Origin: Lophium mytilinum
Taxonomy: Eukaryota > Ascomycota > Dothideomycetes > Mytilinidiales > Mytilinidiaceae
Direction: 5' to 3'
DNA: 64,000 bases
Assembly (NCBI GenBank): GCA_010093605.1
Contig: MU004190.1
Span: 1,222,231-1,286,230, forward strand
Shown here piece after piece: positions 23,107-64,000 of this stretch (the first letter of the stretch is position 1; every line of letters begins with the position of its first letter). The notes beneath the pieces are model-generated. The model saw only the letters and a list, made by a program, of their open reading frames with translations. It searched no databases and was not told the DNA's origin. The position numbers and the translations under genes were made by a program.

Positions 23107-24278
23107 GATGGATGGTTTGGGGTGGTAGTGGTTGGAGTGGGAGCTGGGGTTGCATCAGATGGTAGAGTGTTCGCCAGTATGCGAACTGCTTGAGACCTTG
23201 TAGATAAAGGAAGTGACGGGAAGTGCCAGGAAGTAACAGGATTCTCTAGGACGTCAGTGCTCAGTGCTGAACCACAGCTCAGTGTCCTCTCTGCTATCCT
23301 CAATATCTAATCAGAATCCACATCCCCCTAACATAGCACACTCTTTCCACTCTCCTCGACCCTAAGCCCCCTCTGCGACACCTCAGAAGAAGCTCTCATT
23401 ACCCCAGCAATCTACCTACCACCAAGACAACGGTAGCGACCTGAACCATCAATGCACCAGATACGCCTAACGAATCGTCGATATCCGACCTCCGCCACAC
23501 CTTTCCATCACGACTCAGCAACCGCTGTCACATCCCGCTTCTCCCCGATCGACTCGCGAAGCTCAGGTCCAGAAACAAGCTCGAGGGCCTCGCCGTGCCC
23601 AGAACAGATCAACAAGATCGTCAGCGGGAGGACCCAGCTGACATGTCTATCGATGTCTCGTTAGTTCTTGCATGTAGTGCGGGAGGGACGCAGGTGCCCT
23701 GTGGTCTATGCATTCGCTGGAAGGGGTAGAACAGGAGGACGATGTGAGACATGCCTCATCACTTCATCTCTCTAACAGTTTCAGAGGCGATGAAAGCGAC
23801 CTCCTTTGGAGCATCCTCATTCATCCTAGATACTGTTAGACTTTCTAAGGTGTACCTATCTCGTAACACTCCATACTATATATTCCATAGCCCCAACCCA
23901 ACCGCGCCCTACCGGAATCCTTACCAAACCCAAACTTCCCCAGAGCCGCTAACACACACCTGTTACCTATCGTATTCGGCACCGCGCCGCAACTCCGACA
24001 CGACTAAGCTCATCCGCCGCCTCGCTTAGGCACATGTAGAGTACAGCAACAAGCCACAAGTCTATTCCCACCCGTTCATCACCCGCTTGTGGTAACCCCC
24101 ATAAGGTCCAAACGTCTATGCGCGATGTCAAGTTCCAAGCAGTGCAGACCTAACCGCCGCTTCAATCACTGCCTATTGGCTACTCCTCTCAGTAGTGTTA
24201 AGTGCAAGATTGGAGCCGCACAGCAATAAGTCTGTGTGCCGGGACGGGACACCAAGTACTGCATGTACATGTACCACC
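23107..24278. other. Intergenic between oxygenase and transposon
   Basis: About 1.2 kb, C-rich on the plus strand in its second half. The two longer open frames (about 23452-23664 and 23751-24029) show no family motif or splice continuity. They may be decayed gene remnants at the edge of the repeat block. Nothing callable. Confidence 0.45.
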
Positions 24279-24315
24279 TACGGAGGTGCTTTACAAAAGT
24301 TTTTGCCGCGCTAAA
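24279..24315 (+). repeat. Left TIR of the DNA transposon
   Basis: 37 bp, inverted match to 28232-28267 with a single-base length difference. Preceded by CCACC; the first two bases TA are likely the target duplication. Confidence 0.9.
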
Positions 24316-24824
24316 ATAGCGTAAAGCCACGGAAACGCCACCGGATAGGCGCTCGTGCCTTACAAGACACCTTACACCCGTTTTTTAGTGCACCAACGTC
24401 CTCCATGGCATCCTTAAGCCCTAATTTTAATTGTTTAAGGTTGCTAAGCCTTCTAAGTAAGGTAATATTACTTAATTCCTTAGTATTATACTTCTAATAT
24501 ATAATAGATCTTAGAATCGCTATTACTACCGCCCTTCTTCTCTCCTTATTAGTTCTCTTTTCTAGGCCCCTCTCCTCTAGCCTTACTACTACCGAATTAG
24601 TTAAAGGCGAAGCTTATATAGAAGCTATTAACTCTATAGAGTAGCTATAAGGTTATAGTAAAGTACTATAGAAAGCTAGTTAACTAAGTTAAGACTCTAG
24701 AGAGGGCTATATTTATATAAAATAGTAAGGCTATATAGTAGACTATATAAAATAGAAAGGCTAAGTAGCTATCTATATAGAAGAAGAACTCTACTATACT
24801 AAAGGCCCTATTTAATAGCCTAAT

Positions 24825-25015
24825 TATTATAGCTATATATTTAAGCACGCTATTATATAAGCTAAGCTATAGTAATATATTAGCCCGAGCTATATAAGTA
24901 GGCCTATAGCCTATAACTCTATCTTACGCCTCTATACCTCTATTTCTTTCTTAGCTTTATATTCTTATTACTTTTAAATATAAGCCTATTTTCTATATAT
25001 ATTTAAGCCCTAATA
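24825..25015 (+). repeat. 5' LTR
   Basis: 191 bp; differs from the 3' LTR at 26267 by six C/T or G/A changes. Both copies keep the rare word AAGCACGCTA. Confidence 0.8.
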
Positions 25016-26266
25016 TAATATAAAGCTTCTTCTAGAGGCTAGAAGTAAATAGGCCTTACCTTAATTTTCTAGTACCGCTAGACCTTAATAGCTTATAGAG
25101 CTACCTTTTAATTACCTTACTACTATAATACCTTATAACTATAATAGATTATAATAAGTAACTAAGCTAGTACTCTTTAGTAACCTAATTATACCTTATC
25201 TTTATATTTATTACTATAAGTAGTACTAAGTAGAACCCGTAGGGTACCTATAGAGTCCCTTATATATTTAACTACCTTAGCGCGCTATATAAGCCTAAAT
25301 AACTATTACCTATACTATACTACGGCCCGTAATAAAGATAAAGCTAGATAAAGAGCTTAGTAATATATTAGGCTAGAAAGAACTAGAAGAAACTTAATAT
25401 ATATATATAGCTTATTATAGCGCGTATATAGACTATTATAGTAAATAGAAATTAAGCCTTAAAAGAAAATAATAAGAAATTAACTCTTTTCCCCTTTTCT
25501 ATAATATTAAATACCTTATAATTCTTATAATTCTCTTAATAGACTATATCTATTAGCCTACTATTAAAGAAGCTATAGCTTTTATACTTAAAACTAATAA
25601 CTTATAACTCTATCTATTACTTATTTAAACGCCCTATATTAATTTCTATAAATTTAAATATTAATAGTCTATATATAAGCTACCTAGCTAGCTACTATTT
25701 TTAAAGCTACGGCCGTGCTATAGGCTACGCCTATCTATAGCTTAAGCCTTTTAATAATTTCTATTTAATTTCTATATTAAACGCCTACCTACGCCTATAA
25801 TCTATACCTATATCTATAACCTACGCCGTGCCTATAACTATGCCTATGCCTGCGTACGTAATACTATATTAGCTGTAATTCTTACTATAATTATAATAAT
25901 AAAAGAAAATATAGTATACTATATAGCTCTAGCTTTATCTAGCTCTATTATAGCTAGTACTATAATTACTATATAGTAGTATATATATAATTACGCTAGA
26001 AATTAGTATATAGTTTAGCTATATATTAAAAATAATACTAATTATTAATTTAGCCCCTTTATAAGCTATAAGCTATAAGCCTTACTACTTAATATTAATT
26101 TAAATACATTTAACTTACCTATCTTACCTAGTATAATAATACTACGGCTACTAGGCCTATATAAATAGAAGGGAGGACTTCTAGATTTATATATAATTAC
26201 GGTTTATTATAGCTAGATACCTAGCTAGAAGAAGAGAAAGAGGGGCTTCTTTAAAGAGGGGAGATA

Positions 26267-26457
26267 TATTATAGCTATATATTTAAGCACGCTATTATAT
26301 AAGCTAAGCTATAATAATATATTAGCCTAAGCTATATAAGTAGGCCTATAGCCTATAACTCTATCTTACGCCTCTATACCTTTATTTCTTTCTTAGCTTT
26401 ATATTCTTATTACTCTTAAATATAAGCCTATTTTCTATATATATTTAAGCTCTAATA
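26267..26457 (+). repeat. 3' LTR
   Basis: 191 bp, at a constant offset of 1442 bp from the 5' LTR; followed by the CTAAT duplication. Confidence 0.8.
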
Positions 26458-28231
26458 CTAATTATATAGATTTAGTATAGATTATATCTATATAAATATA
26501 TTAAGTTATAGCCGCTATTTTTTAAGCTATTTAAGTAGCCGTCTTAAAGCTAATAGCTTAGGTACTAGTTCTTATAGGCCTACTACCTATTTTTAATACC
26601 TAGCCTATTTTAAAAATAGACGGCCTACCTATAGCCTCTTTTTTATTAGCCTTCTTATATTATTATAGCTACTACTTCTACTTTAGAGGTATTAGTAATA
26701 TAGGCTATAGTATTAATTTCTTATTAAGATTCTTCTTATTAGTATTAATATTAATCTAGCTATCTAGAGTCTATAGGTAGTAAGGTTTCTTATTAGTACC
26801 CTCTCTATATTTATTACCCCTATTTAATTTAATAATCTTTTTAATAGTGCGCAGTATTTTTTTAATTTAGGCCTAATATCTCTATTATTCTATTTCTTTC
26901 TAAGCGCCTCTCTATATTCTCTCTACTAGCGCGCTATTCTTAGGGGTACCTTTTCTAGTAGTAACACGCTTTAAATAGGGCTAGGCCGGCTTAATTATAT
27001 TAAGATCTAGTAAATTACCTATTTAAAGAAGCTAGATAATATATATAGTATTATAGATCTTAGCCTAGTAATAATATATATATACTAGAGCCTTATCTTT
27101 CTATATAATAGTATTTAGATAAAATCTAGCATATTTAATAGTAAAAAAAATAAGTAGAGGCTTAAAAATATAGATTATATACTAGTACTAATTAACGCCT
27201 TTACCTACGCCTTTTATAAGCTTTCTAGTCTCTTTAGTAAACTTCTATTAAGGTTTCTTACTACTATATAAGTGTATAATTCTAAGGTATAATATAGAAT
27301 TAATTAATTTCTACTTAAACTTAGCCTATTTCTCTATTAAATTATTAAGATCTTAAAGCTCTACTATTATAGCTTTATACTCTTAAGTAGTTTCTAGGTA
27401 CTAGATATAGTATAGTTTTTTCCTCTTATAAAAGAAGTAGCCCTAGAATATAAACTCTTAATAGCCCTTTTATCTCTCTCTTATTATACTCTTTAAGAAC
27501 CTCTTTTTAAGTATATACTAGATTTAATACCCGCCGTAATAGTATTTAATAATAATAGAAGTTTTATTACTCTAAATAATATCTTTCTATTTCTCTAGTA
27601 TTTAATTTTAGTACTCTAGATACTATTTAAGGTACTTTACCTTTATATACTTTATAAGGCCTAGCTTATATATTAGCTTAGTCTTTTTTATATAAAGATA
27701 ATAGTAGTAGAGAATCCTTTAAATTATTATATTTAATACGCCTATAGCCTTAGTAAGCTATAAGGTATTTATCTCTCTACTAGTATAGCTTTTAGTAATA
27801 AGGTTATAAATCTTACTAATCTTTCTAGGCGTTTAAATAGTAGGCCGGCTATTATAAGGGGTATTCTATATATATATATTAAAAACTTTTAGTAATAAAG
27901 AGCTAAATTCTTAGTTAATTACCTTTTTCTATAGTATATAAATAGTGCACTCTATTATATCTATAGTAGTAATAATTTAGATATTTATTTAGCTATAGGC
28001 CTTTATTATAAGGGCCTACGCCCTAGTAGTAATATTATATATTAATCTAGTATTAATATTTAAATTTTTAATAAAGTTTTATATATATCTATCTATATAG
28101 AAAGCGTAGTATATTTCTAATAGAGTAGTAAAGTTAGTATAAGCCGGTAGAAATTGCGCCAAGAAGCGAGGCCCGAGGTGGCGCCAGCCAATACGAGGTG
28201 GCGTACAGGCCCCCCCTGTCTAGCGTCCTTC

Positions 28232-28868: not shown

Positions 28869-30255
28869 CTAAAAGTCAGGCTTGTCCATCGACCGCCGAC
28901 TACTCCGCTCCTCATCCTGACTCCGTCTCTCACTCGCCACCGTTACCGTGACCTCTTGCAGAATTCCGTGGTAGCTCTGGTAGATATGCTCCTGGCTCTC
29001 ATTGTCCTCGGGCCCGGTCGCCCGCACGCTCGTGGTCCCATTGGTCGCCCACTTCGACCCCAATCCAGTCCCAGTCCCGCTCTTGTTGTGCGAAATACTC
29101 CCGAGAGGTACGGAATTTTGCTTCGTCTGACGAGATTTGGAGCCGTACTTTGTAGGGCCAGATACGTTGTAAGAAGAGCCGAGGAGGGTGGGGACGTAGC
29201 GGCGGAGGAAGGCCTTGAAGGCGGGCGCGCAGGCGATGAAGATGGCCGTATGGAGTTCCACTATGGACCAATTGAGGGGGCTGACGAGGTCTACGGTGCC
29301 ATTGGTGGAGTGGATTATGGTTTTGAGGGTTGCGAGGCGAACGATGCTGGCAACGCAGACTCTGAGGGGAAGTTAGTACCAGTTTTCATTAAGAGATAGA
29401 GATGATTGGGAGTAAAATGCAGTGAGTGCAAGGGAGTATTGAACGTTGGAAGGATCAAGGACGGTGGGGCAACGTACAAACTACCAAGTCCAAAGAGCCC
29501 GCACAAGCTCATACGCTGTCGGATGGGCATGTGCAAGCCCCAGAGGAACCGCATCGGTAGCAGAAGAATGCCAACGTCCGTGAGGATGTTCAAAGCCGCG
29601 TTGGCGTAGTAGAAATCGATTACTTGGAAACAATGGCCCTTTTGGGTCGGGTTCCAAAGCATAGAAAGCGGTATACATTGGACAAGTACGGCCACGATAC
29701 TGCCGATTCCGAAGCCGGTAACGACAAACATGGCTACGTACACCATGATGAGAAAGCTCCGTTCTGGTGAGAGTCGGGTGTAGAAAGTCAAGAGCGAAAG
29801 TTTGATGAACATAGCAGAGAAGCTGTACGACACCGAAGATGTGAGGGTGAGCTAAACGTCGTCAGTGTGTTGGACTGTGATACTAGCCACGGAGTATACC
29901 TTCTGATAGGGTGCGACTTCTTGAGGCAACTGGTCTTTAATGGGGCTTCCCAGGCCATACTTGATCGCTTCAAATTGTCAGCATATCAAGAGTCGTAAGG
30001 GATGCTAGAATGAATATACCTCCTATAGGAGTAGCTGAACAGAGGATTGCAAATATCTGAAGATATATAAGCCTGGATCACGTCGATTATGGCACAGAGA
30101 CATACCGCTGCAATGCATATCAAGTAGTCGTCAGGCCCCATGTTCTTCATAAAGACTAGTCGCGTAAAGAGCCTGCATGCAATACAAAGAACTGTGATCG
30201 ACATGAACACCGCGGACAGGATGAGGAGCCCTTCTGCCGCCATCGTGAAGTGCAA
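28869..30255 (-). CDS. Fungal rhodopsin-like seven-helix membrane protein (PTH11/SAT4-type family)
   Basis: Exons read from the 5' end: exon 1 from 30255 (or the second ATG at 30243) to about 30105-30100; a probable micro-exon 30034..30020; 29967..29900; 29851..29478; 29361..28869. The last three are firm: 374 nt and 493 nt, with junctions giving LTLTSSVSYSFSAMFIKLSL and GSLVCVASIVRLATL. Features of the family are MGPDDYLI after TM1, KYGLG after TM2, FTYTRLSP-like loop, QCIPLSMLWNP, and the NILTDVGILLLPM helix. The last exon ends TM7 and a Ser-rich cytosolic tail of about 110 residues. Members are plasma-membrane proteins with receptor-like topology; some (PTH11) sense surfaces, others sit in metabolite clusters. 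Role here unknown. Exon 1-3 junctions are uncertain. Confidence 0.8.
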
Positions 30256-35860: not shown

Positions 35861-36590
35861 ATGTCTGGCTACGAAGGTATAGAGATCGCTTCTTCAATTT
35901 ACCGTACTTTCTAATGCGCAAACACAGTCGAACACAACATCTCTACCGCCGAATCCAGGCCAGAAACTCGACGCCCCAATCACCGCACCCGTCCCGATCT
36001 ATCTACCTTTTATTCCACCCTCGATCTCGTCGACACCTCCGACCCAAATACCCACCACAATGTCCACGCCATACCGCAGCCCGAAAATATGACCGCCGCA
36101 TTTCGACTGCTCGCCAACGGCTACCAAATGATACAGGGCGATGGCGGCAGGGGCGCGGGCGGCGACGGCCCTCCCCTGCTACAGATGATGATAGAAAGCC
36201 TTATGCTCTCTGCAGACGACCCGCCACCAACCTTTCAGGGCGTGCCGGATAGTTTCCTAGATGAACTAGAGCGCGTGCCGAACAAGTCGCTGAAAAAGGA
36301 TGATGAGTGTCCGATATGCTGCAATCCGTTTCTTGATGGTATGTGGACTTCTTGCGTAAACCGAGTTAGAAACAACTCCGGAGATACTGATGCTGTAGCG
36401 TACAGATGAGTTCCCGCTGGTAGTGCGCCTCCCGTGCCATGAGAACCACCGCTTCGACCTCGACTGCATACGCCCGTGGCTGAAGCTCAACGATACCTGT
36501 CCGCTGGATCGCAAGCCTCTGATCAAGAAGAAGGAGCCGGTCAAGACTGATGATGACGAGGAGGAAGAGTGGGATGATCTATATGCTTGA
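35861..36590 (+). CDS. RING-type E3 ligase-like protein with non-canonical zinc ligands
   Basis: Three exons: 35861..35876 (5 codons plus one base), 35928..36338, 36406..36590, total 203 residues. The RING is split by the second intron: CPICCNPF ends exon 2, and exon 3 has DEFPLVVRLPCHENHRFDLDCIRPWL and TCPLDRKPL. Compared with a canonical C3H2C3 RING, the fifth ligand position is Asp (HRFDLDC) and the last Cys is Asp (CPLD). The N-terminal 130 residues are polar, with a Gly-rich run and the helix LLQMMIESLML. The C-terminus is acidic (DDDEEEEWDDLYA). Similar RING variants occur in fungal proteins of unknown target. Probably a soluble ubiquitin ligase. Splice sites canonical; model confident. 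Confidence 0.88.
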
Positions 36591-37202: not shown

Positions 37203-37450
37203 TTAACGTCCATTATAAAAACACTTGTCACACTTAATCGTCCGCCTCGTCTCCTGGTTCCAGCGATGCGGGCAAGCCTGCATCGCAAAAGTACCTATAC
37301 ACATCATACTGGTCAGATATTACCTGTAAAGTAGAATGGCAACGGTGATTGAGACATGCTGCACGTACCTCTTCCTCGCATGTTCGGGCAGGGGTGATTT
37401 GCCCTCTCCTTGTGGCCGCAAGTCCATTTGATTGTTTCGATAGTGCACAT
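37203..37450 (-). CDS. Array member 1: Cys-rich CGH/CxxC small protein, 57 aa
   Basis: Exon 1 is 37450..37369 (27 codons plus one base), exon 2 is 37294..37203. The 74-bp intron has donor GTACGT, branch CTGAC and acceptor GTATAG. Probable zinc ligands are C2, C11, H13, C21, C35 and the C49-x2-C52 pair. The N-terminus MCTIETIKWTCGHKERANHP is the array signature. No signal peptide or membrane helix, so intracellular. A different acceptor 17 bases downstream would give a tail without CxxC; the chosen one restores the shared pattern and has the better branch-site spacing. Leftmost and most downstream member of the array; function unknown. Confidence 0.7.
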
Positions 37451-37696
37451 CTTGAGGTTGGCAGTATTTGGTTACTTTGCTAAGTTTCGGTTCAAGGTTG
37501 GCCTTCGGGTAATTTCTGTGTCGAGTGTTGAAAGTTGCCGAGTTTGTTAAAGAGCTAAATATTGAGAAAGATATCTAGAATTCCGAGCTCCTAAATACTC
37601 GCCCACAACGCCGAAGTGAAGTATTGAGACACTAAATACTCTGCTGGCTGCTTCGTTGGAGCGACCAAGTAGTTTCCACACGCGGTCATCAGTAAG

Positions 37697-37903
37697 TTAT
37701 CGGCAAGCTGGGCACTTGTACGGGGACGCTATGTTGTTGGTCCATGTCCGAAGACAAAATAATCGAAATCTGTCTAATGAAGGGATCATGTGTCAACATC
37801 GGGTACCAGGAGAGTAATAGAGAAGCATACCTCGCCTAGCGCAGTACTCGTTCACACGCTGCTTGTGACCGCAGGTAAAGTTCTTGATTTCAATGATGCA
37901 CAT
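37697..37903 (-). CDS. Array member 2: Cys-rich CGH/CxxC small protein, 49 aa
   Basis: Exon 1 37903..37831, exon 2 37773..37697, 57-bp phase-1 intron (donor GTATGC). Ligand pattern C2, C11, H13, C21, C31, C45-x2-C48. It is the shortest member; its C-terminus SPYKCPACR matches the PY-(K/E)-C endings of members 6 and 7. The frame is open upstream of the ATG, but the family start at MC is clear. Basic residues (K14, R16, R23, R24) surround the zinc site. Function unknown. Confidence 0.7.
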
Positions 37904-38119
37904 TATAGGTAGCATCTGACAGGGCTCTTTAAATGTGGGTCTTTTTGTAATTTCGGGTATTTGGAAAGTTGTTTTGAGAAAGCTGCTAACATAGACAGTA
38001 GGAGTCAACAAATTGACATCACCACCCACTGAGTTGGTCCAGCCAACTGGCCTTGACGCTTCTTCATCCAGGCCTTCACGGTAACTATGGCCCTCCTGAA
38101 TCCCGTCTATCTAGCGCAT

Positions 38120-38372
38120 CTACCGGAACTCCCACGCTCCTTGATCGAATCGCCTTGGTCTGCAGTCACGACACTGCACCGAACACCACCGTTCGCTTCT
38201 CTGGGTAAGGGCACACTGGCCCCCCTGGCCACCTATGGAAACAGAAAGGTACGAGTCAGACTGGGTACAAAGCTATCACGAGAAGCAAGAATTACTTACG
38301 GGGATCAGCACAAGGCTTAACCTTCGACTCATTGTGGCCGCAGCTGAATATGGAGACAAAAGTATGACACAT
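38120..38372 (-). CDS. Array member 3: Cys-rich CGH/CxxC small protein, 61 aa
   Basis: Exon 1 38372..38300, exon 2 38232..38120, 67-bp phase-1 intron (donor GTAAGT, acceptor CCATAG). Ligand pattern C2, C11, H13, C21, C31, C41 and C45-x2-C48. The tail FDQGAWEFR is shared in form with member 4 (YDQGSWLFR), so these two are the closest pair. A conserved 3' flank block lies at 38021-38052. Function unknown. Confidence 0.72.
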
Positions 38373-38546
38373 TTTGAGGAAGTTTTCACTAATGTGGATA
38401 TCGAAGATGTCTATCGTAATTATGTTCAAGAGATATAGGTTAAAGAAACTCCGCAGGCCTTTATGAAAGACTCCAACCTAGGAAGACACATCACAACCTG
38501 CCGCGTTGGCCCAGCCAACTAGCCTCGCCACGCCGCCTTCTCTCTC

Positions 38547-38784
38547 CTACCGGAAGAGCCAGCTCCCTTGGTCATATCGATACCCTGAACACTGGGTGCA
38601 GCGTTCCCGATGCGCTACGCTGCCTATCGATACGCGACACCGCGGCCCACCTATGTAACCGTGAGAAATGGTCAAGCGTTGATATACGGCAAGCCACAAG
38701 AGAGGACTTACCAGGATCATTACAGGGCTGGCTCTTTGGCTGACGGTGGCCGCAGCCGAATATGTGGATGATCGTTCCGCACAT
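38547..38784 (-). CDS. Array member 4: Cys-rich CGH/CxxC small protein, 58 aa
   Basis: Exon 1 38784..38712, exon 2 38650..38547, 61-bp phase-1 intron (donor GTAAGT, acceptor ACATAG). Reading through the intron also gives an open frame, but that loses the C-terminal CxxC. The spliced form has C2, C11, H13, C21, C29 and C42-x2-C45. The N-terminus MCGTIIHIFGCGH is nearly the same as member 5. Function unknown. Confidence 0.72.
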
Positions 38785-39012
38785 TTTGGTTAGTGTTTAA
38801 AAGCTCTTTAGTGTGAGTATAGTAATAATCGCAGTTGATGTTCAGAAGCGAGCAAGATTTAGATACTAATGGAGATAGACAGGTCCACTCTAAATACTTG
38901 GACTGTTCGGACCTCCACGCATTATGGTACCTCACAACCCACTGGCTTTTGCGTTGGTGGTCCAGCCAACTACCGCCAACTTTCGCTAACTATCACCGAC
39001 ATGGCATATTCA

Positions 39013-39262
39013 CTAGACCCGCCGACGCGGCCGTTCAAGAGGCGGCATTTGGCAACTGTTACAGCTATGCGGAAGTCGTTTGCTGCCTCCAATAGGGAAT
39101 CCGGGGCACCGTCGCCCGCCTAGCGAGGAAGAATGATCAGTCGACCTTGGGCAAATGAAGATGGATCAACGCAAGGTCTCAATACTCACGAGGTTCGGCG
39201 CACTGTTGAGGTATCTGCTGCTGGTGGCCGCAGCTGAATATGTGGATGATCACTCGGCACAT
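39013..39262 (-). CDS. Array member 5: Cys-rich CGH/CxxC small protein, 59 aa
   Basis: Exon 1 39262..39190, exon 2 39119..39013, 70-bp phase-1 intron (donor GTGAGT, acceptor CGCTAG). Ligands C2, C11, H13, C21, C29 and C44-x2-C47. The N-terminus MCRVIIHIFSCGHQQQ is followed by a basic tail (ERPRRRV). Exon-1 DNA is close to member 4 (an ATCATCCACATATTC stretch), which indicates duplication. Function unknown. Confidence 0.72.
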
Positions 39263-39822
39263 GTTGAGCGTTGGTCAAGGACGCTTGAAAAGTGGTTATC
39301 AAGATTGGTGTTGTGAAGCCGAGTCTTGAAGAGAGTCTTCGAAAGGCGGTCGTTGGAGTTATATCCTGATGCGGGAGTCGAAGATATAGTAATTAGATGT
39401 ACGAACTCCAAATTCCACGTCTCAGACAGCTCATCGCCTACTTTGTTCCGCCCGTTTGCGTCACTTATCCACCAGCTCTGTAGTTTTACCGATAGTAGCC
39501 ATTGCCCATCCCCCCGCCACCCTTTCCTATTGGCACGGTGATATCGAATACACGATGCTGAGCTCATATGTTACATTTCTAGGTGTGCTCTTTCTACTCG
39601 GAGGCAATACGAGTTTCATGACACTATGGAGGGGGCCCCGAAACGTTTTGAGAGTCAGATACAAATCTCAAAATTGTGGTCTAACTCGTTGCTGGATAGT
39701 AAAAAAACGCTCTACCGAGTGACCTTTTACGCCGACTCCTCCCAACTCTCGAGACGCCTCACTCCCTAAATCCCTATCATTCTAGTTCGACCCGCGAGTC
39801 GACCACTACATCTCCTCAGCCG
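39263..39822. other. Widest gap in the Cys-rich array
   Basis: 560 bp, longer than other gaps in the array (about 140-250 bp). I looked for a decayed copy with a rev-comp CGH block and found none. An open frame on the minus strand (39250-39567) has no cysteine pattern and is not called. Confidence 0.45.
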
Positions 39823-40014
39823 CTACCGCCCATCTCGACAGCCAGGACATTCGTAGGGGTACCCTACCTGAGTTTGATACGCCGGTCCCTTGCAAAAGCA
39901 GATCCTATCTCTGTGCAGGGTTCCGCCTGTGAGATAATGATCGCTTCCGCACGTACTAGTGAGGCAATCGACATGATGCCCGCAGGCGTATACGTGGATA
40001 ATGACTTCACACAT
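39823..40014 (-). CDS. Array member 6: Cys-rich CGH/CxxC small protein, 63 aa, intronless
   Basis: One open exon from the ATG at 40014. MCEVIIHVYACGHHVDC opens it. Ligands C2, C11, H13, C22 (one residue later than in the other members), then C39, C41 and C56-x2-C59, with one extra Cys at 17. The end YPYECPGCRDGR parallels members 2 and 7. The phase-1 intron of its neighbours is absent; its place is filled by coding sequence, consistent with intron loss. Function unknown. Confidence 0.72.
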   Translation of the reverse strand: MCEVIIHVYACGHHVDCLTSTCGSDHYLTGGTLHRDRICFCKGPAYQTQVGYPYECPGCRDGR

Positions 40015-40258
40015 CCCCGAGAATTTAGCGGAGAAGCTGGGCGAAGTGGTTAGTTGCAAATCAGCTATTATGTTTGGAAGATAGACTCGTGGAAGTAAAG
40101 AAAATATATGAGGATTTGAAGGCTGTTATATGATTCAGAGATAGGAAGTCTACATGTTCCGTGCTACCCGCTAACCTCAGTATACTTCACAACCTGCTGG
40201 CTCCTCCGTCTATCTAGCTTACCAATACACCCGCACATGAACACGCTACCGCACTTCC

Positions 40259-40537
40259 TCATCCTGCCAAGCCAACGGGATCCTTTATCCTGAACTTCGA
40301 CATGCGGCTTATAGCACAGGTATCGCACTTGTACGGATGTCGCGGCCCGGGTACAATAGGGCCCGGATGTCCTGGACACGGCGGCGCAATGCGATGAAAG
40401 CTTACTATGCATTAGAAAGATTTCGATTAGATTTAGGTCTAGAGTCTAGGCATGCAGCACTTACAGGGATTAGCACACTGCTTTATAAGAAATTGGTGGT
40501 GGCCGCAGCTGTATGTATGAGCGAGTTGTTGGCACAT
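40259..40537 (-). CDS. Array member 7: Cys-rich CGH/CxxC small protein, 72 aa
   Basis: Exon 1 40537..40465, exon 2 40404..40259, 60-bp phase-1 intron (donor GTAAGT, acceptor GCATAG). Ligands C2, C11, H13, C21, C34 and C51-x2-C54. The PPC at 32-34 and the (P/H)-x-KC-x2-C end align position by position with member 8. The linker between is Pro/Gly-rich (PGHPGPIVPGPRHP). A Lys-rich tail of 18 residues follows. Function unknown. Confidence 0.72.
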
Positions 40538-40776
40538 TGTGAGTCTAATCGGTTTGGCAGGAGATTCTGCGGGTTAGACACCGGGGAATTGCAAGTCGGT
40601 TTCTTTGAGCAGTGATATTGATGTAGGAAAGATGATGTCGTATTCAGGAAGCAGAAGTCTAAGATCTAAGATCTGAATAGTGAAGTCGACCTGCGCCTCC
40701 AACTATTAAGCTACCTCACGACCTGCTGGCTTTTGAGTTAGTCTCAGTAGTTGGCACACTGTTACAACAGCTACAC

Positions 40777-41083
40777 CTACCTATTCTCTTCCTCCTTCTT
40801 CCTCATCTCCTCCATCACTTCATCCATCCGCACAAGCTGACAATTGGGACACTTGTGGGTCTTGGGAGGATCAAAATAGATAATCGGATCCCAGGGCGCC
40901 GGCAATGGGCGACAGGGAGGCAGATCGCTGCGTTTATTGCCTAGCGAGTAGCAATTCCGGGTCAGTCTTTCTTTTCTTCTACTTAGGATAAACAACGTTG
41001 GGACACCTACCTATGTTGTCGCAGTTGACAATTTCTGGATACTCACACCCGCAGGTCCATTTCTTTTCGATTCTCTTGCACAT
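40777..41083 (-). CDS. Array member 8: Cys-rich CGC/CxxC small protein, 78 aa
   Basis: Exon 1 41083..41011, exon 2 40940..40777, 70-bp phase-1 intron (donor GTAGGT, branch CTGAC, acceptor CGCTAG). Ligands C2, C11, C13 in place of His, C21, C34 and C55-x2-C58. The N-terminus MCKRIEKKWTCGCEYPE resembles member 1 (KWTCGH). A charged helix (MDEVMEEMRKKEEEN) ends the protein. It is the longest and first member in the transcription direction, and its regular composition suggests it may be closest to the ancestral form (inference). Function unknown. Confidence 0.75.
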
Positions 41084-41793: not shown

Positions 41794-43761
<1,968 letters not shown>

Positions 43762-43925: not shown

Positions 43926-46900
43926 TCGCCGCGGCCCGACGTTCGTTCCCTGTATTGGGCTCCGTTGAAGCTCTTTAACTAGCACGTTGGTGTCGGAAGA
44001 TGAAGGTGAATTGCAGTGAGGTGATGCAAAGTCGAGTAGGTCCGAATCGGGGTGAAGCCTCATCGGGAAGGTTGAGCGTGTTTACAGGGTCGACGGCAAG
44101 TATAGTCTGCGGCATTTCCTCAATACTGGCTGCAACTCCTCAATATACACAGCGGAGGAAGGTTCGATCACGGACTAGCTAAGCAACAGTGATGTGAGAG
44201 GCTTGAAGACTATCAGCTGCTTAAGCAAACCCTAGTATCCGAGGCGTTGAACAACGCCCGTCTAGGCGCCTTTCCTGGTCTCGTTTGCGGGGTATGGATA
44301 TTAAATCAATGACCGCGGCATGGTTTATATTGAAGTTAGGGAAATATCCATGACATAAACGGCCAAAGGACCAAAACGAGCGATCGTCCCGATCGCGTGG
44401 AGTCCCCACAGCTGCAAGGCACGGGTCGCTTACCCATCGACAGTGCTTCCAGAAACCTTCCTATAGGGTAATGCTATTACCACCAATCGCAAGATAGAAA
44501 TATTCAAGCACCGAGTCGGTTGTTCAAGCGACGCGTAGCGTGTAGTATGGCCATCAAATTCGTCTTGAGGCCACGGAACTAGATTTTCAAGGTTAGAGAA
44601 AGTTGGCAGCAGCTGCTGCCTTGTAAGGTCCGGCATTCGGTGATTCGTAGACACTCCCTTGAATGGGTGCACTAGTAGTCAGGAAGATGAAGATGAAAAT
44701 TAGTTGTATGGCAATGGTGATTTCAAGTCTATACCGAGAAGTCTGAAGGGTGATCAGGCTTGGCTCCTCCAAGAGGATTCCTTCTCAAGCCCCAAAGAGT
44801 TGCGACCTTTTTCAGATGCATGATGAGATCTTGCTAAGGTTTAGACGTTGGCGAATGTGATATTTCCAATCACGTAATGTAAGAATTTAGAGAATAATAG
44901 ATATTAATTCTATATAGAAATCTAGCTAGTCTATATATATATTAGAGAGGCCTATATAGGCCTTAATTATACTAGATCTATATAGAAAGGTATTTCTATA
45001 GTAGATCTATATATTATATATATAATATCTAAATATTAACTATATATTAAGAATTCTATATTCTTCCCTTCTAGATCTAATTTACTATTAAATTATATTT
45101 ATAATAGTATATTACACTTACTACTTTATACTATATACTATTAGTATATTAGGCTATTAGCTTCTTTTAAAGCTTTAAAGCTTCTAGGGGTATATAATAC
45201 TATAAAAGGTATATTAGTAGGTAGTAATATTATAGTAATATACCTAAGAGGGGTTTAGAATTCTTTAGAGGCCTACTGCTATATTAGTAGAAGAGATAAT
45301 AAAAGTATTAGAATATTTAATAGCTTAATAATAAGAAAGAATTAGAAGAGATTATAAAGTATTTATAATAGAGGGAATTATAAAGTAATATAAATATTAG
45401 TATACTAGTACGCATTAGGTTCTAATGCGCAATTAGAGCTATAATAGCTAATAATAGGCTTATTAAAGATCTTATAAAGTCTCTTATAATATAGTAAAAA
45501 GCTTATAATCTTATATAGGTCTAAGAAGCTATTAGTATATTATAGAGTAGTAAGTAGTAATCTAGAAGTAATAGATTTAAGAATCTAGAGTATATATAAG
45601 GCTTTTTTAATACTCTTATACTCTTTTTTCTATACTTAACTTTCTTCTTTAAGGTTTAAGCTTCTCTTAGCTTTAAAAGTTTATTAAAGACTCTTATAGC
45701 TTCTCTTCTTATTACTATTATCTTTCTTTATTAATTTCTTTATTAGAACTCTCTCTCTCTTAGCTTCTAGGCTACTTCTTCTTACTCTAAGTTAGTGTTA
45801 TAATATTACTTAATACCTAGCTAGATTCTATAGCCTCTAGCTTACTCTATAGAAGAGGTAGAGATAATAAAGGTAATAATTCTTTAGACTCTAGCTATAG
45901 TTATAAGGTTCTACACTCTTATAAATACTTAGATATCTTAGCTTATAAAGCCTTATAGGCCTATAGTAAGTTTCTAATAATAGTTTAGCTCTTTCTTTTA
46001 ATAAAGCTAATAAGATCTAGTTACTATTATATTTATATTAATTATTAACCTTCTAATAGTCTAGAGGTTCTATAATCTATACTATATATAGCTAATAGCC
46101 TTTAATAACTCTATTCTACTTTCTTAAGCCTTCTAACACTACACTATAGCTTCTAATTATCTAAACTACACTAAATACCCCCTAAAGTTTAAAGGTAGTA
46201 GTAGAGCTTAAAGAAATATACTACTTTAAGGGTTTCTTAGTAATATTAGAAATAATAAACTAATTTTAAATAAGAACTATAGCTATACTTTATACTTTAT
46301 AGGGCTTCTTAAATAGTATTTAGGCTTAAGAGTAGATTATAGTAAGAATTCTAGAGCTTCTTCTACCTTTAGAGCCTATAACTACTACTTAAGAATATTC
46401 TTAGAAGGCTATTAGTTTAGTAAATATATTTAGGCTTATAATTTAAATAGTTTTTCTTTCTACTAAGGATTCTATATAGAATATTATTAGTAGAGTAGTA
46501 AGAGGACTTATTTATTCTAAGATAAGTTTAGCTTTACTTTTAGAGTATTTTAGAACTTAGCTAATACCTATTATAAAAGGGTAGACTCTAATAGCTTATT
46601 AAAAGACTACTAGAGCTTATATTTAATAAGGTTACTATAATATTACTAAGTTTATATCTTCTCTTTATAACTAAGAATCTCTTAAGAACCTAGCTAAAAA
46701 TATAGTATACTTAGCCTTAGCTATATAGCTACTAATAGAATTAATTTAAAGAAAGACTACTATACTACTATATAATCTAGATATTCTTTATACTTCTAAA
46801 TCTCTAATAGCTTAATATTACCTATAGGGCTCTAGTAGTACTTCTAGTTTAGAATCTAGCTTCTAGTAATTATCTATAGCTATATTAGGTTTAAAAAATA

Positions 46901-49153
46901 TAGCTACTTTAGGTTCTAGTACTTAAGGTCTAAGATAATACTCTCTAACCTCTTCTACTTAGCCTTTAACTTCTCTAACTTCTTTAACCTCTTATTATTC
47001 TTCTTTAGGTTCTCTATAGCGCTTTTAAGAGCCTACTCCTAATATACTATTAAGCTGCTACTTATTCTAGTTATCTATTAGTAATAATAATAACTCTACT
47101 AAAGAGACTCCTTTAAACTCTACTTAGTATTAGATAGGCTCTCTAAATACTATTCTCTAGAAGAATAGGGCTAGTAAGTATAGCTAAAATATATTAACTT
47201 AGAGCGCGCCTTTAAAATAGCCTTAGAAGAATAATAATAGCTATTCTAGTAGTAGTAGTAGCTATAAAAGTCCTAGTAGAAAAAGTTCTAGTAGTAGAAT
47301 AGCTACCTAGAAGAACTAAGAGTATATTAGCTTAGCTAGTATTAATAGAAAAGCATTAATTTTCCCTCCCCTTCTAGATATAAAAAGAGTTAAGTATAAT
47401 AGAAGTATAAGCTTAGCTTAGTTAATCTTTAATATAGATTCTTAAATTTATTATCTTTTTAATTCTCTAAAGATAAAATATAGCTAAATAAGTAATAATA
47501 AAGAATTAAACGCTTAAATCTAAATTAATAAAGAAAATCTAGGTAATAAATATATAGAGTTCTTCTAATACTCTATTAGCTTAGAATAGAAGTACTATTT
47601 AAGCTCTTTTATACTTTCTTCTATATAACTCTATATTAAGAGCTTAGGTAGGTTATATTATAGGTGTATTAAAATTACTATTTAAATCTAACTTATAATT
47701 ACTACTAGTATTCTTATTATCTTTAATATCTATTATACTAGTATTACTGCTAGAGAAGCTCTCTAATTAAATATTAGAGTTAGCATTTTTATCTAAGGAC
47801 TTATTATTTATGCACATTTTAGTATTCTTAGCTCTTAAGTTAATCCCTTTATTCTATAGCTCTGCAGTATTATTAGTTTAAATAATAGCATTACCTCTTA
47901 GCTATATAATAATAGTATCCCTATTATACTTATTATTATCTTAGTGCGCAGTATTAGGTAATTAAATAGTAGTATTTATACTCTTAGATATTCTATTACC
48001 CTCTTAAGCTATTTCTAATAGTTCCCTATTATTAGTATCTATAGCTAGCACTAATATATTATTAGGTTATCCTGCAGGTACTATATAATTACTAGTTCCC
48101 TATAGAATATTAAGCTTATCTTAACTTATCTCTAGCTTATATATATAAACTTTCTAATAGATATTTATAGTAGTCTTACCTATATCTTTATATTATATAA
48201 CTATAAAGCTAGTAACCTATACTAGTATAATAGTTAATTAACCCTTTTTAGGTTTCTTTTTCTTAGTAGCCTATTAGTCTCTCTTAAGAACTCTTTCTTT
48301 AAAATCTCTTAGTATTTAATATAGCTTTAGTTTAGGCAGTTTCTAAGCGTTTTTCTTTTTTTTCTAGAAGAGCTCCGCGCCCTTATGCTGCTATTTTAAT
48401 TAATACTTAGTAATCTTCTAATTCTATTTTACTTTAGAAATTATAGTAAACTTAGACTATAGCTTTCTATTAGCGTTATCTATATTTAATATATCTATAA
48501 TAGCGTTATTACTAGATTTAACTTCTTCTTAATATATAGCACGCTCTTTATTAGTATTATTAAAATTCTCTTAGTTTTAAAGTACTTAGTTATCTTCTAA
48601 TATATTATTAGAATATTCTAAGCTATATTTAGGGTCTTCTTAGTTCTAAAACTTTATATAAGTATTAATGCGTACATTTACTAACCTATTACTATAAATA
48701 AGGTTCTTTAATACTTAATTAGTAGGCGTTTAAAGTATATAGATACTAAAAGGATAAGTAGTAATAATTTTAAATAGACTAAACTATTTTACTCTAAATT
48801 TTCTCTTAACCTTATTTTAAAGAAGTATCTAGAAACTAATCTTCTATTAAGTAACTAAATACTTCTTAGATAGAGGTTATAGATTCTATAGATCTACTAT
48901 AATTACTTTCTTTAGTAGCTAATCTTCTATATTAGAAAAACCTAAAACTATAAAAGTTAGGGCTATTAGTACTTAGTAGCGAACGGCGTAAACTTCTAGT
49001 AAACTATGTAAATTACGCAACGTCTATATAAACTACTAGCGCAGGTAATATTACTATATAGACTAGTAGTAGTTTACCTATATACTATATAGCCTAATAA
49101 TACTTAATTATTATCTATTATTTTAAACTATTAATAATTTAGTTCTATAGTAT

Positions 49154-49392
49154 NNNNNNNNNNNNNNNNNNNNNNNNNNNNNNNNNNNNNNNNNNNNNNN
49201 NNNNNNNNNNNNNNNNNNNNNNNNNNNNNNNNNNNNNNNNNNNNNNNNNNNNNNNNNNNNNNNNNNNNNNNNNNNNNNNNNNNNNNNNNNNNNNNNNNNN
49301 NNNNNNNNNNNNNNNNNNNNNNNNNNNNNNNNNNNNNNNNNNNNNNNNNNNNNNNNNNNNNNNNNNNNNNNNNNNNNNNNNNNNNNNNNNNN
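49154..49392. other. Assembly gap, 239 N
   Basis: Run of N inside the repeat block, so sequence length and continuity here are not reliable. Confidence 1.
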
Positions 49393-50172
49393 ATATAACT
49401 ATTCTACTACTAATATAAGCTCTAGTAGTAGTTTCTTATATCTATATTATAGAATAGCCTCTAGTATTATAGCTATAACGCTACCGCCTCTATAGCTTCT
49501 TCTTTCTATTTACTTCTTCTATATTTCTTATTTCCCTCTATATTAGTACACTTTACTCCTTCTACCTATATTTTAGGTTACTGCTCCTCTATTTATAGTC
49601 TCTTCTATTATACTTCTAACCTTAAAAGTTAGAATACTATTATTTTATAACCTAGCCTATAGTATACTTATATACTAAAAGGTAATAAAAATATATACTC
49701 TCTATCTAGCGGGGTAGTTACAGGACCTAAAATATACTTAAAGAAATAGGCTAGAGTCTCTTTTAGAATATAAGAATATAGGGGGCACGCTATAATAATT
49801 ATAGATAATTTTATATAATTCTAAATAATCTTATATAGTACTATAAGAAGAGTTAGAGATATTAAAGTAGGGGTAGCTTTATTTTCCCTCTCTCTACTAC
49901 GTTATTATATAGTAGATAGTTATCTATTACTAGTATATATAAGGGCTAGGTTATTTCTATAATACTAGATTAAAGTATATCTAGTGCTAGCAATAGAGTA
50001 TATATTCTATCCGCCCGCTTATTTTCTAAAAAAAGTAGGGCTAGAAAAGTAGTAGTTAGAGTAGAGTTAAAAGCTAGTAGAAAATATAAATATATAGTTA
50101 TATATAGTAGTTAGAAAGATTAAGAGCTATATATATAAAAAATTATATTAGAACTAAGGCACTATTATATAA

Positions 50173-50314
50173 AGTAGAGCGGGAGGGATAGAGAAACTTA
50201 GTAGAAAAAAAATTCTATAGAGTAGAGTAGAAGAAATAGAGAAATCTAGTAGATAAAAAAGCTTATAGAGTAGAGTAGAAGGGATAGAGAAGCTTAATAG
50301 ATAATATAAGCTAG
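50173..50314. repeat. Three tandem 48-bp units inside the RIP block
   Basis: Units at 50173-50220, 50221-50268 and 50269-50314 share AGTAGAG, GATAGAGAAA/G and a TAGTAGA/TAATAGATA block. The purine-rich strand runs for over 100 bp. Confidence 0.75.
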
Positions 50315-51644
50315 TAATACTAGAGTATATTATCTTTATCTAATATAGCTCTATAGAACTATGCTAGTCTAACTACTAACCTAAATATTAGTACGCTATT
50401 AGCTTTCTATTATAGTAGATACTATTAGTAAGCTATACCCGCGCACTACCTCTTATTCTCTATATTTTAGCTTCTTAGATAAGTTTCTACTAGCTTTAGC
50501 CTTTACTATAATTTATTAGTATATATAATTTTAATACCTACTATATTTTAAATAGTTAGCCTTAAGTTAATCTCTACTATAACTCTTCTACCTTTTTAAC
50601 TTTTACTACCTTCTACTACTCTATAGTGTAGAGAAAGAAATGCGGGGTAGGCTTTTATACCTATAGAATAGAGGAGAATAGTTCTATTATATATGCAGGC
50701 AGGCGCTAGAAATTTAAGGCTTAGGCGTATATATTTTAACTAATAGTTACTATATACTTTTCTTTTAAGTATACTATTAGAATCTTATATAAGTACATCT
50801 TTATAGTAGTGCGCTATTATTACTAATAGTTATTTTTAATTAGCCTTAGGTTTAATCCCTTATATTATAGCTTAACGCGCTAGGTATTATAACTATAGAA
50901 TATCTCTAAATAGGTATTATAAGACTAGTAGTGTTTTTAAGCGTATATAGTTTAGAGGGTTTATATTAAAAGTAGGTAGATAAGTAGTTTCTAAGTTAAA
51001 GCTTAGAGTAGAAATAGGCTTTAAGATATAAGGTATATATATATACTATATATCTATTAAAAGTTAACTTAGTAGTAGTATAAGAGTATAGAAAATATAT
51101 AGAAAGTATATATAGGTAGACTTATATAGTTCTATTTAAGGCTACTTTCTACCTATATATGCGCTAGAAAATTAGTAATTTCTTAAGAAGGTACTTATTA
51201 TACTAAGTGTATACACCTTCTATATCTACTTTTAGGCGTCTCTTAGATAATATTAGAGGAGTAGAAGATAGTAGAGTTAGTATTCTTCTCTTTATCTTTT
51301 ACTATATAAGTATATATAATTTCTAAGGCCTTCTTAATACTAGTTTAAGCTATAATTAGGCCTATTTTAGCCTTATATAAGGCCGCCTCTACTACCTTTA
51401 AGCTATCTAGGTCTTCTATAGATAATACCTTCTTTATAGTATTTTCTTTATTCTAGTTAACTTTCTCTACCTAGTTTTTTCTATTATTAAAGTAGTATAT
51501 ATTTAATTTATCTTTATCTTCTATAAGGTCTATAGGCTCTAGTTTATTAGGTAGTACTTTATATTTATTCTTTAAGATTACACCTTAAGTCTCTTATTCT
51601 AATACTACTATTTCTAAGTTCTTCTTTTTAGCCTTAGCTATTAC

Positions 51645-51807
51645 TAAGGTCTCTAGTAATAATAGCACCTCTTATATACCTCTAGTCTTCTAGTATATTA
51701 AGGTCTATAGCTTATCTATAAAGATATAGGTCTCTAGTAATAATAGCGCCGCTTATATACTTCTAGTCTTCTAGAATATTAAGATCTATAGCTTAACTAT
51801 AAGAATA
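51645..51807. repeat. Tandem duplication of an 81-bp unit inside the RIP block
   Basis: Units at about 51645-51725 and 51726-51807 share GGTCTCTAGTAATAATAGC, CTTATATAC, CTCTAGTCTTCTAG and GTCTATAGCTTA. The differences are mostly transitions. Confidence 0.7.
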
Positions 51808-54800
51808 TACTTAGTATAAATTTAGACTTCTAGTTAGAGGTTATAGTTATCTTTCTTTCCTTTCTCTCTATATATAGCTATATAGTAGCTAATAGCCTTA
51901 CCTAAGGTAGTATAATTTAAGTAGAATAATATTAGGTTTATAAGGCTAACTTTAAATATAGAACTATCTTTAGAGTTAATAAAGTAGGCACGCATTAGTA
52001 AGAGGACTAAATGCGGGTTAGTAAATATATAATCTTCTTACGTATAGTAGTAGCGTATATTTTAGGTCTTAGTAGTAGTAAAAGATCTTTTTAATATCTA
52101 TATTAATAATTATAGATTAGAATATACTTAGTAGAGTAGGTATTAAAGTATAGCTTATATATATAATTAGTGCTGCGCTACTAGTAATATTAAGTATATT
52201 TATAGATATATTAACTTAGAGTCTATAGCCTTTATATAGCTATACTACTATACCTTCTTTACCTCTAGAGTATTTAAAGCTACTTTTATCTAGAACTACG
52301 GGTACTATAAGCTTCTTATACTAGTAAATAGTTAGTAGATATAGATAGGGAAGTAGTAGATAGACTTATATAGGCCTAATTCTTAATAAAGAAGCTCTTA
52401 GAGCTGTTTCTATAGGCCTTCTTTACTACCTCTAGTATAGTCTTTATCTCTAGCTTATTAGACTAGCCACCCTTTATATTATCTAATTTTTAACTTAGAA
52501 CTAGGTATAGTAAATACTTATATATAGACTAGATAAGTGTATTATATTTAACTTTAAAGTTAGTAATATCTTTCTAAGGGCGCTAGAGAAATATAGTAGC
52601 TTTCTTTAGGTTATTTCTACTATATATAGTATATAGCGCTTTAAAGTAGTCTATATAGCTATTAATATAGATAGTAATAGTAAGATCTACTAGTTTATTC
52701 TAGTAGACTACTATCTACTCTATTATAGTAGCGGGGTTATAGTAACTTAGGCTATTAAGCTATTAGTAATATAGTAAGAAAGAGTATAGTAAGGCTTATA
52801 TATAAGAGTAAGATTAAAGTTAAGTTTTACTTGCCGGCCTACTTAGTTATTAGTAGAGGAGGTAAAGGTCTTTACTAGCTATAATATAACGCGCGCCTGC
52901 TAGATAAAGTAGATTTATAGCCTTAGCTTAGGTAATAGATAATACTATATAGCCTAAGAAGTTAGATAGTTAAAGTAGACTTTATACTATTATAAGAGGG
53001 TAATAATCTCTAATTATAATTAATTATATTAAGCGTTAGAGGTAATAGAGTAGAAGCTATAGGCAACACCGGGCTCTATAAAGGGTGGTCTTCTAGTATT
53101 AGGGCCTAAAGGTAAAGAATAATATATACTACTTTAGAATTAGAGAAAGAATTTAGGTCTATTAAACGGGGTAGTAGGTCTACTAATAGAATACCTCTTA
53201 ATATTATTAGAAATATAGCCCCTAATATTAGCTACCCTAGGTATTACTTTAAATAGTTTATAGGGCGTAAATCTTAACTAGTATAACTAACTTATATATA
53301 CCTGCGCAGTATTTAAATAAGTAGTAGCCCTGCTTAATAAGAAGGGGTGTAATAAAATTAAGACAGGTAAGATAATATAAGTAGCGGGCTAACTCTAATT
53401 ATAAAAGGAAGATATATATAATCTCTAATTATAATTAATAATCTATAAAAGAGAAGAGTTAAGCGCATAGATAGTAAGAAAAATTAAATTGCTAGTAATT
53501 AACTTATATATTAATATTTTTAAAACCCTATTATACCTTATACTTAAATATAAATACTATTATAGAATAAACTACTATATTTAGGGGTCTAGACTAACTA
53601 TATATACCGCCTACTATATAACTTAAGTATACTTAAGAGAAGCCTTCTACCTACTATTCTCTATCTCTATATTATCTACCTCTATCTCTACTTTAGTATT
53701 ACCTATCTTACCTACCTCTATCTCTATATTCTTCTTCTCTATATTATCCGCATTAGGCTTAAATTCTAACTTAAATACTTTACTTATTTCTAAATTAGTT
53801 CTATAGTTAGTAAGTTCTATTATATATAGATTAACTAAGTACTAAAAGTCCTCTAGATTAAAAGGCTTTAGTAGGTTACAGTCTAACTATTATTTATAAT
53901 TAATAATATATTACATATAGATATTACTTAAAAGGTTTTAAAGTATTATTAACTAGTTAACTATATTTAGTTAGAGCAGGTCTAGACTAGTACACTTATC
54001 TATAAGGCTAGCAGATCTATAATCTATATATATTATAGTAGAAGATAATAGTTATAGGCTAAAGTATTTATTAGTATTTAGGTTTATATAGTAGACGCAA
54101 CTATATATATAGAAGAATTTTAAAAGGGTAAAGATTAGTATCTTACCTAGTAACGCGTGTATATAAGTATTATAGATAATAGAGTTTTAATAGTATTACC
54201 TAAATAGCTAGAAAAGGGATATTATATTAGTAGGTATCTATAGAAGAGAGGGTGCTTACTTACCTCTTTAAGTAGGCTAATACTTGCTAACTCTTCTAGA
54301 TAATTTATCTTAGTATTATATCTTATAGCGTAGGGCTATAAGAGAATTACATTCTAACTATATATAGATAGGTGTAGCTTTAATTAATAAAACGCTTATT
54401 CTATTAGCTTAGTATTATTAGCTAGGATATTATATAGCTTATAGGTATTAGTTTAATAGAGCTAAAATATAGAGTATTATTACTAATATACTTAAAGTTA
54501 TAGAGGTAGAAGATATTTCCCTTTTTAGATATATACGCTCTAGTAAAGGCGGAGGGTATCTTATAGTTTTAACCCGGTTTAGAGAGAGGTTTATCTATGT
54601 TTAACTAGACTAGAATAGGTAAGTATAGTTTAAGTATATTAAGGTCTATACCTTATACCTCTATCTTATAGTATTAACCTACTAGAAAGTAGTTTATAAT
54701 TTAACTATAGCCTAGAACCTCTAGTATAGATAATATACTTACTATAGGCGCTATTTAGAGTTAATTACTATAAAATATTAAGAAAAGAAAGTAATTAGGG

Positions 54801-54999
54801 GGTAGTAAGTTTAAGTAGCTAGTAAATTTAATTAGGCGGCTGTTATTAGTAAAGGGAAATAGGTAAAGATAGCAACATGTAATTTTAAAAAGTAAAGTAA
54901 GGTAGTGCTAGCGGGGTATACTAGCGTTACCTAGTATTATAGAAATTATATAGGAAAGTATATAGTTATTATCTTATATTAATTAGCCTAAAAATATAA

Positions 55000-63400: not shown

Positions 63401-64000
63401 CTATAATTCTATATAATACTAGATAGTACCTTTAATTCTTACTATTTCTATATTCTAGTATAATTCTATTAGTAGTATATTCTATAATAGCTTATTTTAT
63501 ATTAGAAAACCGCTTAGTATTAGTAAGAATTTTACTAATACCTAAGAATATAGCCTAAAGAGCTATAGTATAGCTAATACTTTAGGTAGTCTTCTTTATC
63601 TACTATACTTAGTATAAAGCCTAGTAGTAGAGTACTAGGTAATATATTTAAGTGCTGCGTAGTTCTATCTAGGTTACTAATAGTTAGATAGACTAGCTAT
63701 GCGCTCTTATTACTATAATATTAAGTAAGCTATATCTTATCTATAGAGAGTAAAATAGGTATTACTATAGCCCCCGCTAGAAGCTTTAACTAAGTCTACT
63801 ACTACTAGTCTAATATATATAACTTAGTATATACCTACTAGCCTTCTATATTATAAACTTAAACTAGTATAAATATAAGATAATTATAGAAAGAGTAGTA
63901 TCTAATTAGAAATAATATAGCTACTATTATATTAAAGTAGTATACTAGATACTACTCTCTACTTAAGCTTTATTTTTTACTTAGGAAATATAGCATCTCT
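60461..64000. mobile_element. RIP-mutated repeat block, right part
   Basis: 3.5 kb of TA-rich, stop-dense sequence continuing to the window end; the block probably extends beyond. A GC-rich imperfect hairpin lies at 60891-60927 and a (TAA)n/(AAT)n run at 61229-61258. I cannot identify the element or its strand. Confidence 0.7.
60891..60927. other. GC-rich imperfect hairpin in the RIP block
   Basis: An arm beginning GGCCCCGCAAGCGCA pairs imperfectly with the later TGCACGCGGGCCC across a CTACT loop. It stands out because everything around it is TA-rich. It could be a 3' end structure or terminal repeat of an element. Confidence 0.45.

Follow-up and report, generated by a model that had tools for sequence, protein, structure and literature searches.

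The described systems closest to the proteins considered here are each recognized by a simple feature. Secreted effectors carry an N-terminal signal peptide, metallothioneins have a high cysteine content arranged in repeated clusters, and zinc fingers follow characteristic ligand orders: Cx2C...Cx(1-3)Hx(2-3)Cx2C...Cx2C for RING, a CxHxC..CH core for NF-X1, Cx2Cx6Cx(5-16)Cx2Cx(6-8)C for the Zn2Cys6 cluster, and Cx2Cx4Hx4C or Cx2-4Cx12Hx3-5H for the CCHC knuckle and the C2H2 finger respectively. We have analyzed a 64,000-nucleotide (nt) stretch of contig MU004190.1 of the ascomycete Lophium mytilinum (the window), which contains a minus-strand array of eight small cysteine-rich paralogous genes at 37203-41083 with predicted proteins of 49-78 amino acids (aa). 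We compared ten proteins with these systems: the eight array copies (m1 to m8), a singleton encoded elsewhere in the genome, and P0002, a relative of the singleton. Each of the zinc-finger motifs was found in 0 of 10, with no Pfam match to NF-X1, and the cysteine content of 8.3-12.7% is not the high, clustered content of a metallothionein. We propose, with a probability of about 0.55, that these proteins belong to an old family of tiny fungal proteins, probably cytosolic or nuclear, that fold around zinc and act as binding modules.

All ten proteins match the pattern MCx8CG[HC]x(7,8)C...C...CxxC, the spacing limits of which were fitted to the same ten. On alignment M1, C2, C11, G12, C21, a middle cysteine and both cysteines of the CxxC do not vary, and nine of the ten proteins have H13; the sole departure at position 13 is a cysteine, in m1, which reads CGC instead of CGH. 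(In ligand lists C11 is the residue Cys11, whereas C11 singleton denotes the protein encoded on contig C11.) The common minimum is therefore six cysteines plus H13, or cysteine at 13 in m1. The copies vary in the tail and in the spacing around the middle cysteine; as judged from the aligned sequences, the ligand scaffold is constant and the loop can change freely. Exchange of histidine for cysteine at one fixed position, with the other ligands kept, is the behavior of a zinc site. Since disulfides would not predict such a swap, the substitution in m1 speaks for metal.

The gene models were built by reading the minus strand between 36500 and 42000 for ATGTG[CT] starts and enumerated GT..AG introns. 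Numbered from the high coordinate, the genes are m1 (40777-41083, 78 aa; exons 41083-41011 and 40940-40777), m2 (40259-40537, 72 aa; exons 40537-40465 and 40404-40259), m3 (39823-40014, 63 aa; a single unspliced frame), m4 (39013-39262, 59 aa; exons 39262-39190 and 39119-39013), m5 (38547-38784, 58 aa; exons 38784-38712 and 38650-38547), m6 (38120-38372, 61 aa; exons 38372-38300 and 38232-38120), m7 (37697-37903, 49 aa; exons 37903-37831 and 37773-37697) and m8 (37203-37450, 57 aa; exons 37450-37369 and 37294-37203). The start-to-start distances from m1 to m8 are 546, 523, 752, 478, 412, 469 and 453 bp. A first-pass annotation of this DNA had described eight minus-strand genes of 49-78 residues with starts 412-752 bp apart, and re-derivation returned the same models and the same spacing. 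It also placed C22 in a sixth member; counted from the low coordinate this is m3, which does have one additional residue ahead of that cysteine. The details of the observation that were tested are thus confirmed.

Seven of the eight array genes contain one short intron, and m3 has none. The chosen introns are all GT..TAG (7/7, beginning GTA or GTG) and 57-74 nt long, and each has a branch-like [CT]T[AG]A[CT] sequence 21-27 nt ahead of its 3' end. In six of the seven the donor lies after nucleotide 73 of the coding sequence, splitting codon 25 after its first base; in m8 it follows nucleotide 82, that is nine nt or three codons further on. The choice of intron was ambiguous, with six options in m1 and four in m2 and the CxxC already required by the filter, and the shared donor position decided it. 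With the donor fixed, dinucleotide shuffling of the downstream DNA gave a C...CxxC product in 2-28 of 2000 trials per gene; these figures lend support but are no clean p-values, because the pattern was set after the genes had been seen. In these models six of seven introns share position and phase. Beyond the individual genes, the two strands of the window contain eight occurrences of the signature MCx(7-9)C[GSA][HC], and all eight lie within the array; the mean over 100 mononucleotide shuffles is 0.07. In the search for further copies in the window, among them remains altered by repeat-induced point mutation (RIP), the signature scan gave nothing outside the array, and a tblastn search at E up to 1 placed 37 of 113 matches outside it, the best with E = 0.016, which we judged to be noise.

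The family is not confined to the array. Apart from the array itself, single-member searches of the genome from which the window comes (43.2 Mb, 24 contigs) recovered a single further locus. The queries were eight of the nine members (not m6) in a loose, exon-by-exon search, so that nine members is a lower bound. The C11 singleton begins at C11:1453345 on the plus strand and is an unspliced frame of 48 aa with an AACC ATG start context; no second copy of the signature lies within the 3.1 kb examined around it. As a query of the protein collection it returned two proteins, P0001, which is identical, and P0002, which is 83% identical and derives from a 945-base contig sourced from the Joint Genome Institute. 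P0001 and P0002 differ at eight positions, none of which affects the six cysteines or the CGH. The C11 singleton aligns with m4, m2 and m5 over 46-55 columns with E = 6e-10, 1e-9 and 3e-9 respectively, values that are generous given a database of nine sequences. It is about as close to these three as many array members are to one another, which makes it probable that the family predates much of the divergence within the array.

Pfam, NCBIfam and PDB searches by sequence named no family, in agreement with the earlier remark that no named domain with this layout was known. Searching Pfam with the ten proteins at E up to 10 gave two sub-threshold matches of one protein each: zf-ANAPC11 (PF12861) with residues 25-49 of m7 (E = 0.032, 14.7 bits, cutoff 25) and, with E = 0.21, RBD-FIP with the charged tail of m1. 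Two NCBIfam matches, likewise to one member each, have E near 0.03, and the best PDB profile matches (E = 0.11 and 0.4) were to short zinc fingers or knuckles. In the protein collection the array alignment gave nine candidates, all with E above 1, and m3 gave no match. A search of prokaryote contigs with P0001 yielded 130 pattern matches, none of which was confirmed. None of the titles and abstract beginnings returned from open-licence PubMed Central text under the terms searched describes the family. Short hypothetical proteins with a layout very similar to MC...CGH...CxxC are probably common in the proteomes of filamentous ascomycetes, and mainly for this reason we stop short of presenting the family as entirely new.

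The copies have diverged extensively. In exon 1 the pooled proportions of nonsynonymous and synonymous differences (pN and pS) are 0.43 and 0.72 over 36 pairs of nine sequences, with pS near saturation, and for the closest pairs (m4-m5, m5-m6 and m4-m6) the ratio of nonsynonymous to synonymous rates (dN/dS) is 0.36-0.40. On these pN and pS figures the copies are old and under constraint. The first-pass annotation had spoken of an old, diversifying, lineage-expanded family. Age and strong divergence are borne out by the near-saturated pS, but diversification in the sense of positive selection is not supported, given pN below pS and the low dN/dS of the closest pairs. Expansion is seen, within this genome, in eight tandem copies and at least one singleton, which bears on half of the claim.

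The most similar copies are often adjacent (m5-m6, m4-m5 and m7-m8), as tandem duplication predicts, although the non-adjacent pair m2-m4 has the second-best similarity score. An ancestral intron-bearing gene would have given rise to the array by repeated tandem duplication, after which the loop and tail would have changed and the ligand frame been kept. The intron common to seven array genes is absent from both m3 and the C11 singleton. In the alignment m3 has about seven additional residues precisely at the intron site of the other copies, and we speculate that these, in a stretch containing CTCACAG, are an exonized remnant of the 3' end of an intron.

Zinc binding taken alone is plausible, and more likely than our proposal as a whole; it is suggested by the seven constant ligand-type positions (C2, C11, H/C13, C21, one middle cysteine and the final CxxC) together with the H13 to cysteine swap in m1. 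A beta-hairpin may run from C2 to C21 and turn at the C-G-H knuckle. C11, H13 and the final CxxC would then constitute one four-ligand zinc site. C2, C21 and the middle cysteine would secure the hairpin at its open end, whether by sharing a cysteine or by forming a second site to which a variable residue contributes the last ligand. We infer an intracellular binding module because the protein is a single tiny domain with no evident signal peptide. It has no recognizable catalytic module and might act as an adaptor or competitor that binds a protein or nucleic-acid partner, though this role is a guess. A more elaborate version, which we consider improbable, is that this is an undescribed seven-ligand zinc fold, possibly with two zinc ions sharing one cysteine, whose members would serve as intracellular tandem recognition modules beside a RIP-type AT-rich island, the metal scaffold staying the same and the loop and tail varying, for example in self-recognition or in conflict with mobile elements or mycoviruses.

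Several observations weigh against the proposal of a constrained, intracellular zinc-binding family. Two full four-ligand sites require eight ligands, so that seven would suffice only if one were shared or a further residue took part. AlphaFold models are too poor to rely upon: that of the C11 singleton, computed together with eight relatives of which seven were represented by exon 1 alone, has a predicted local distance difference test score (pLDDT) of 54.6, and that of m3 by itself 43.6. In the low-confidence model of the C11 singleton strands 2-8 and 14-19 do flank the CGH turn, but those of m3 lie elsewhere (3-11, 21-29 and 32-40). Among distant pairs pN approaches pS in several cases (0.48 versus 0.53 for m4-m8), as it would under saturation. 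Exon-1 differences fall at codon positions 1, 2 and 3 in the numbers 211, 219 and 285 for seven sequences, a bias that fits coding constraint but is modest, and 25, 19 and 29 for m4, m5 and m6 alone, where it is weaker. Lastly, the proteins may be secreted by an unconventional route.

This last point leads to an alternative that we regard as unlikely, namely that these are effectors or toxins secreted non-classically, without a signal peptide and held together by disulfides instead of zinc. Such proteins would be small, cysteine-rich and tandemly expanded with diverged loops, as are these, and a strongly AT-rich RIP-type island begins about 3 kb away. Yet no signal peptide is evident, as had been stated at the outset: by a simple check, with no dedicated predictor, within the first 35 residues no 11-residue stretch has a hydropathy above 1.72, and seven of the eight genes have an in-frame stop 15-114 nt ahead of the start codon, the frame between the two being free of ATG. 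In m7 the frame is open for 210 nt upstream, with one in-frame ATG four codons before the start. In addition the swap of histidine for cysteine and the CxxC and CGH knuckles, in a set of six cysteines and one histidine, suit metal better than disulfides, and a conserved singleton relative sits elsewhere in the genome.

It is rather improbable that the family is a degenerate version of a RING or of another treble-clef finger, forming a truncated E3-like module for partners in the ubiquitin pathway. The C11-x-H13 and final CxxC recall parts of a RING, and m7 has the weak match to zf-ANAPC11 noted above, but that match lies below the cutoff and is seen in one of the ten proteins, and none of the ten contains the RING core Cx(1-3)Hx(2-3)Cx2C. 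Separately from the family, a plus-strand frame at 35915-36409, directed toward the array, encodes a CPICC-N-P-F stretch resembling the first half of a RING, with no Pfam match.

Very unlikely, in our estimation, are metallothionein-like metal buffers, with metal tolerance rising with copy number as it does for the CUP1 array of yeast. A tandem array of tiny cysteine-containing proteins is what this would require, yet the cysteine content is low, the presumed hairpin has hydrophobic residues, and the copies are strongly diverged, whereas one would expect those of a dosage array to remain similar. That these are functionless short frames, either pseudogene debris or a chance pattern, is scarcely credible and we reject it: the protein collection was indeed empty for the array alignment and m3, but the signature count, the shared intron position, the splice and branch motifs in seven of seven introns, the eight open models and the constraint shown by pN below pS all argue otherwise.

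The intergenic DNA has a shared feature of its own. A 20-bp element like AGCCAGCAGGTTGTGAGGTA is present in five of the seven intergenic spaces, on the minus strand within 90 nt past the stop codon. Those after m1 (40712-40731), m2 (40183-40202) and m4 (38928-38947) were found by both a matrix and a pattern. The weaker one after m5 (38487-38506) was found by the matrix and differs from the genome-scan pattern by more than two mismatches. The weakest, after m6 (38015-38034), has a score of 15.6 bits and ranks fifth in the window when both strands are counted. Since the other four went into the matrix, only the m6 copy is independent. A GTTGGCTGG stretch precedes the element after m4, m5 and m6. 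Scanning the genome with up to two mismatches gave five places, three of them in the array, and a reversed control pattern gave six. The exact matches, three genome-wide and all in the array, alone stand out, although the pattern was made from these copies. The elements after m1 and m2 are identical at 18 of 20 positions, compared with at most 15 in ten shuffles. As synonymous sites are near saturation, this identity suggests selection or gene conversion. The element may be a 3' end, part of the promoter of the next gene, or a trace of duplication.

Directly upstream of the array on the minus strand is a GH15 glucoamylase with a CBM20 starch-binding domain (41797-43503), and a fungal rhodopsin domain (PF20684) is located at 29318-29851. 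Searches for tRNA genes (bacterial settings) and for Rfam families at the gathering threshold gave no match in the window. The GC content falls to 22-35% at 24000-28000 and from about 44000 to 64000, beside normal gene-rich DNA. These AT-rich blocks have TpA/ApT of 1.7-1.8 and (CpA+TpG)/(ApC+GpT) of 0.06-0.27, which is the mark of RIP. The corresponding indices are 0.91 and 1.12 for the array and 0.93 and 1.13 for the glucoamylase gene; the first index of the array is near the usual threshold and the second gives no sign of RIP. RIP operates within limits of length and identity, and short, diverged array copies would fall outside them as targets.

Genes with two such tiny exons are easily missed in gene calling, and those described here lack a domain name. 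The seven-ligand pattern provides a searchable definition of the family, and the conserved, unspliced C11 singleton of 48 aa is convenient for structural and metal analysis. Should it be generally true in fungi that small zinc scaffolds of this kind are amplified without secretion, the rule that small and cysteine-rich means secreted effector would miss an intracellular class.

Compared with known systems, the family resembles the small secreted cysteine-rich effectors of fungi in size, cysteine number, expansion and the proximity of a RIP-type AT-rich island, and differs in having no evident signal peptide and in the fixed histidine/cysteine position. The cysteine arrays of NF-X1 and ZNFX1 also contain CGH preceded by a hydrophobic residue and one other (hydrophobic-x-CGH), but the NF-X1 motif is absent from all ten proteins, and Pfam gives no match to it. 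With CUP1-type metallothionein arrays it shares tandem, tiny, cysteine-containing proteins, and it is set apart by its low cysteine content, CGH, hydrophobic strands and diverged copies. The likeness to RING-type fingers, including zf-ANAPC11, lies in the C-x-H knuckle, the final CxxC and the weak match of m7; the order and spacing of the ligands are different, and a whole protein of this family is merely 48-78 aa.

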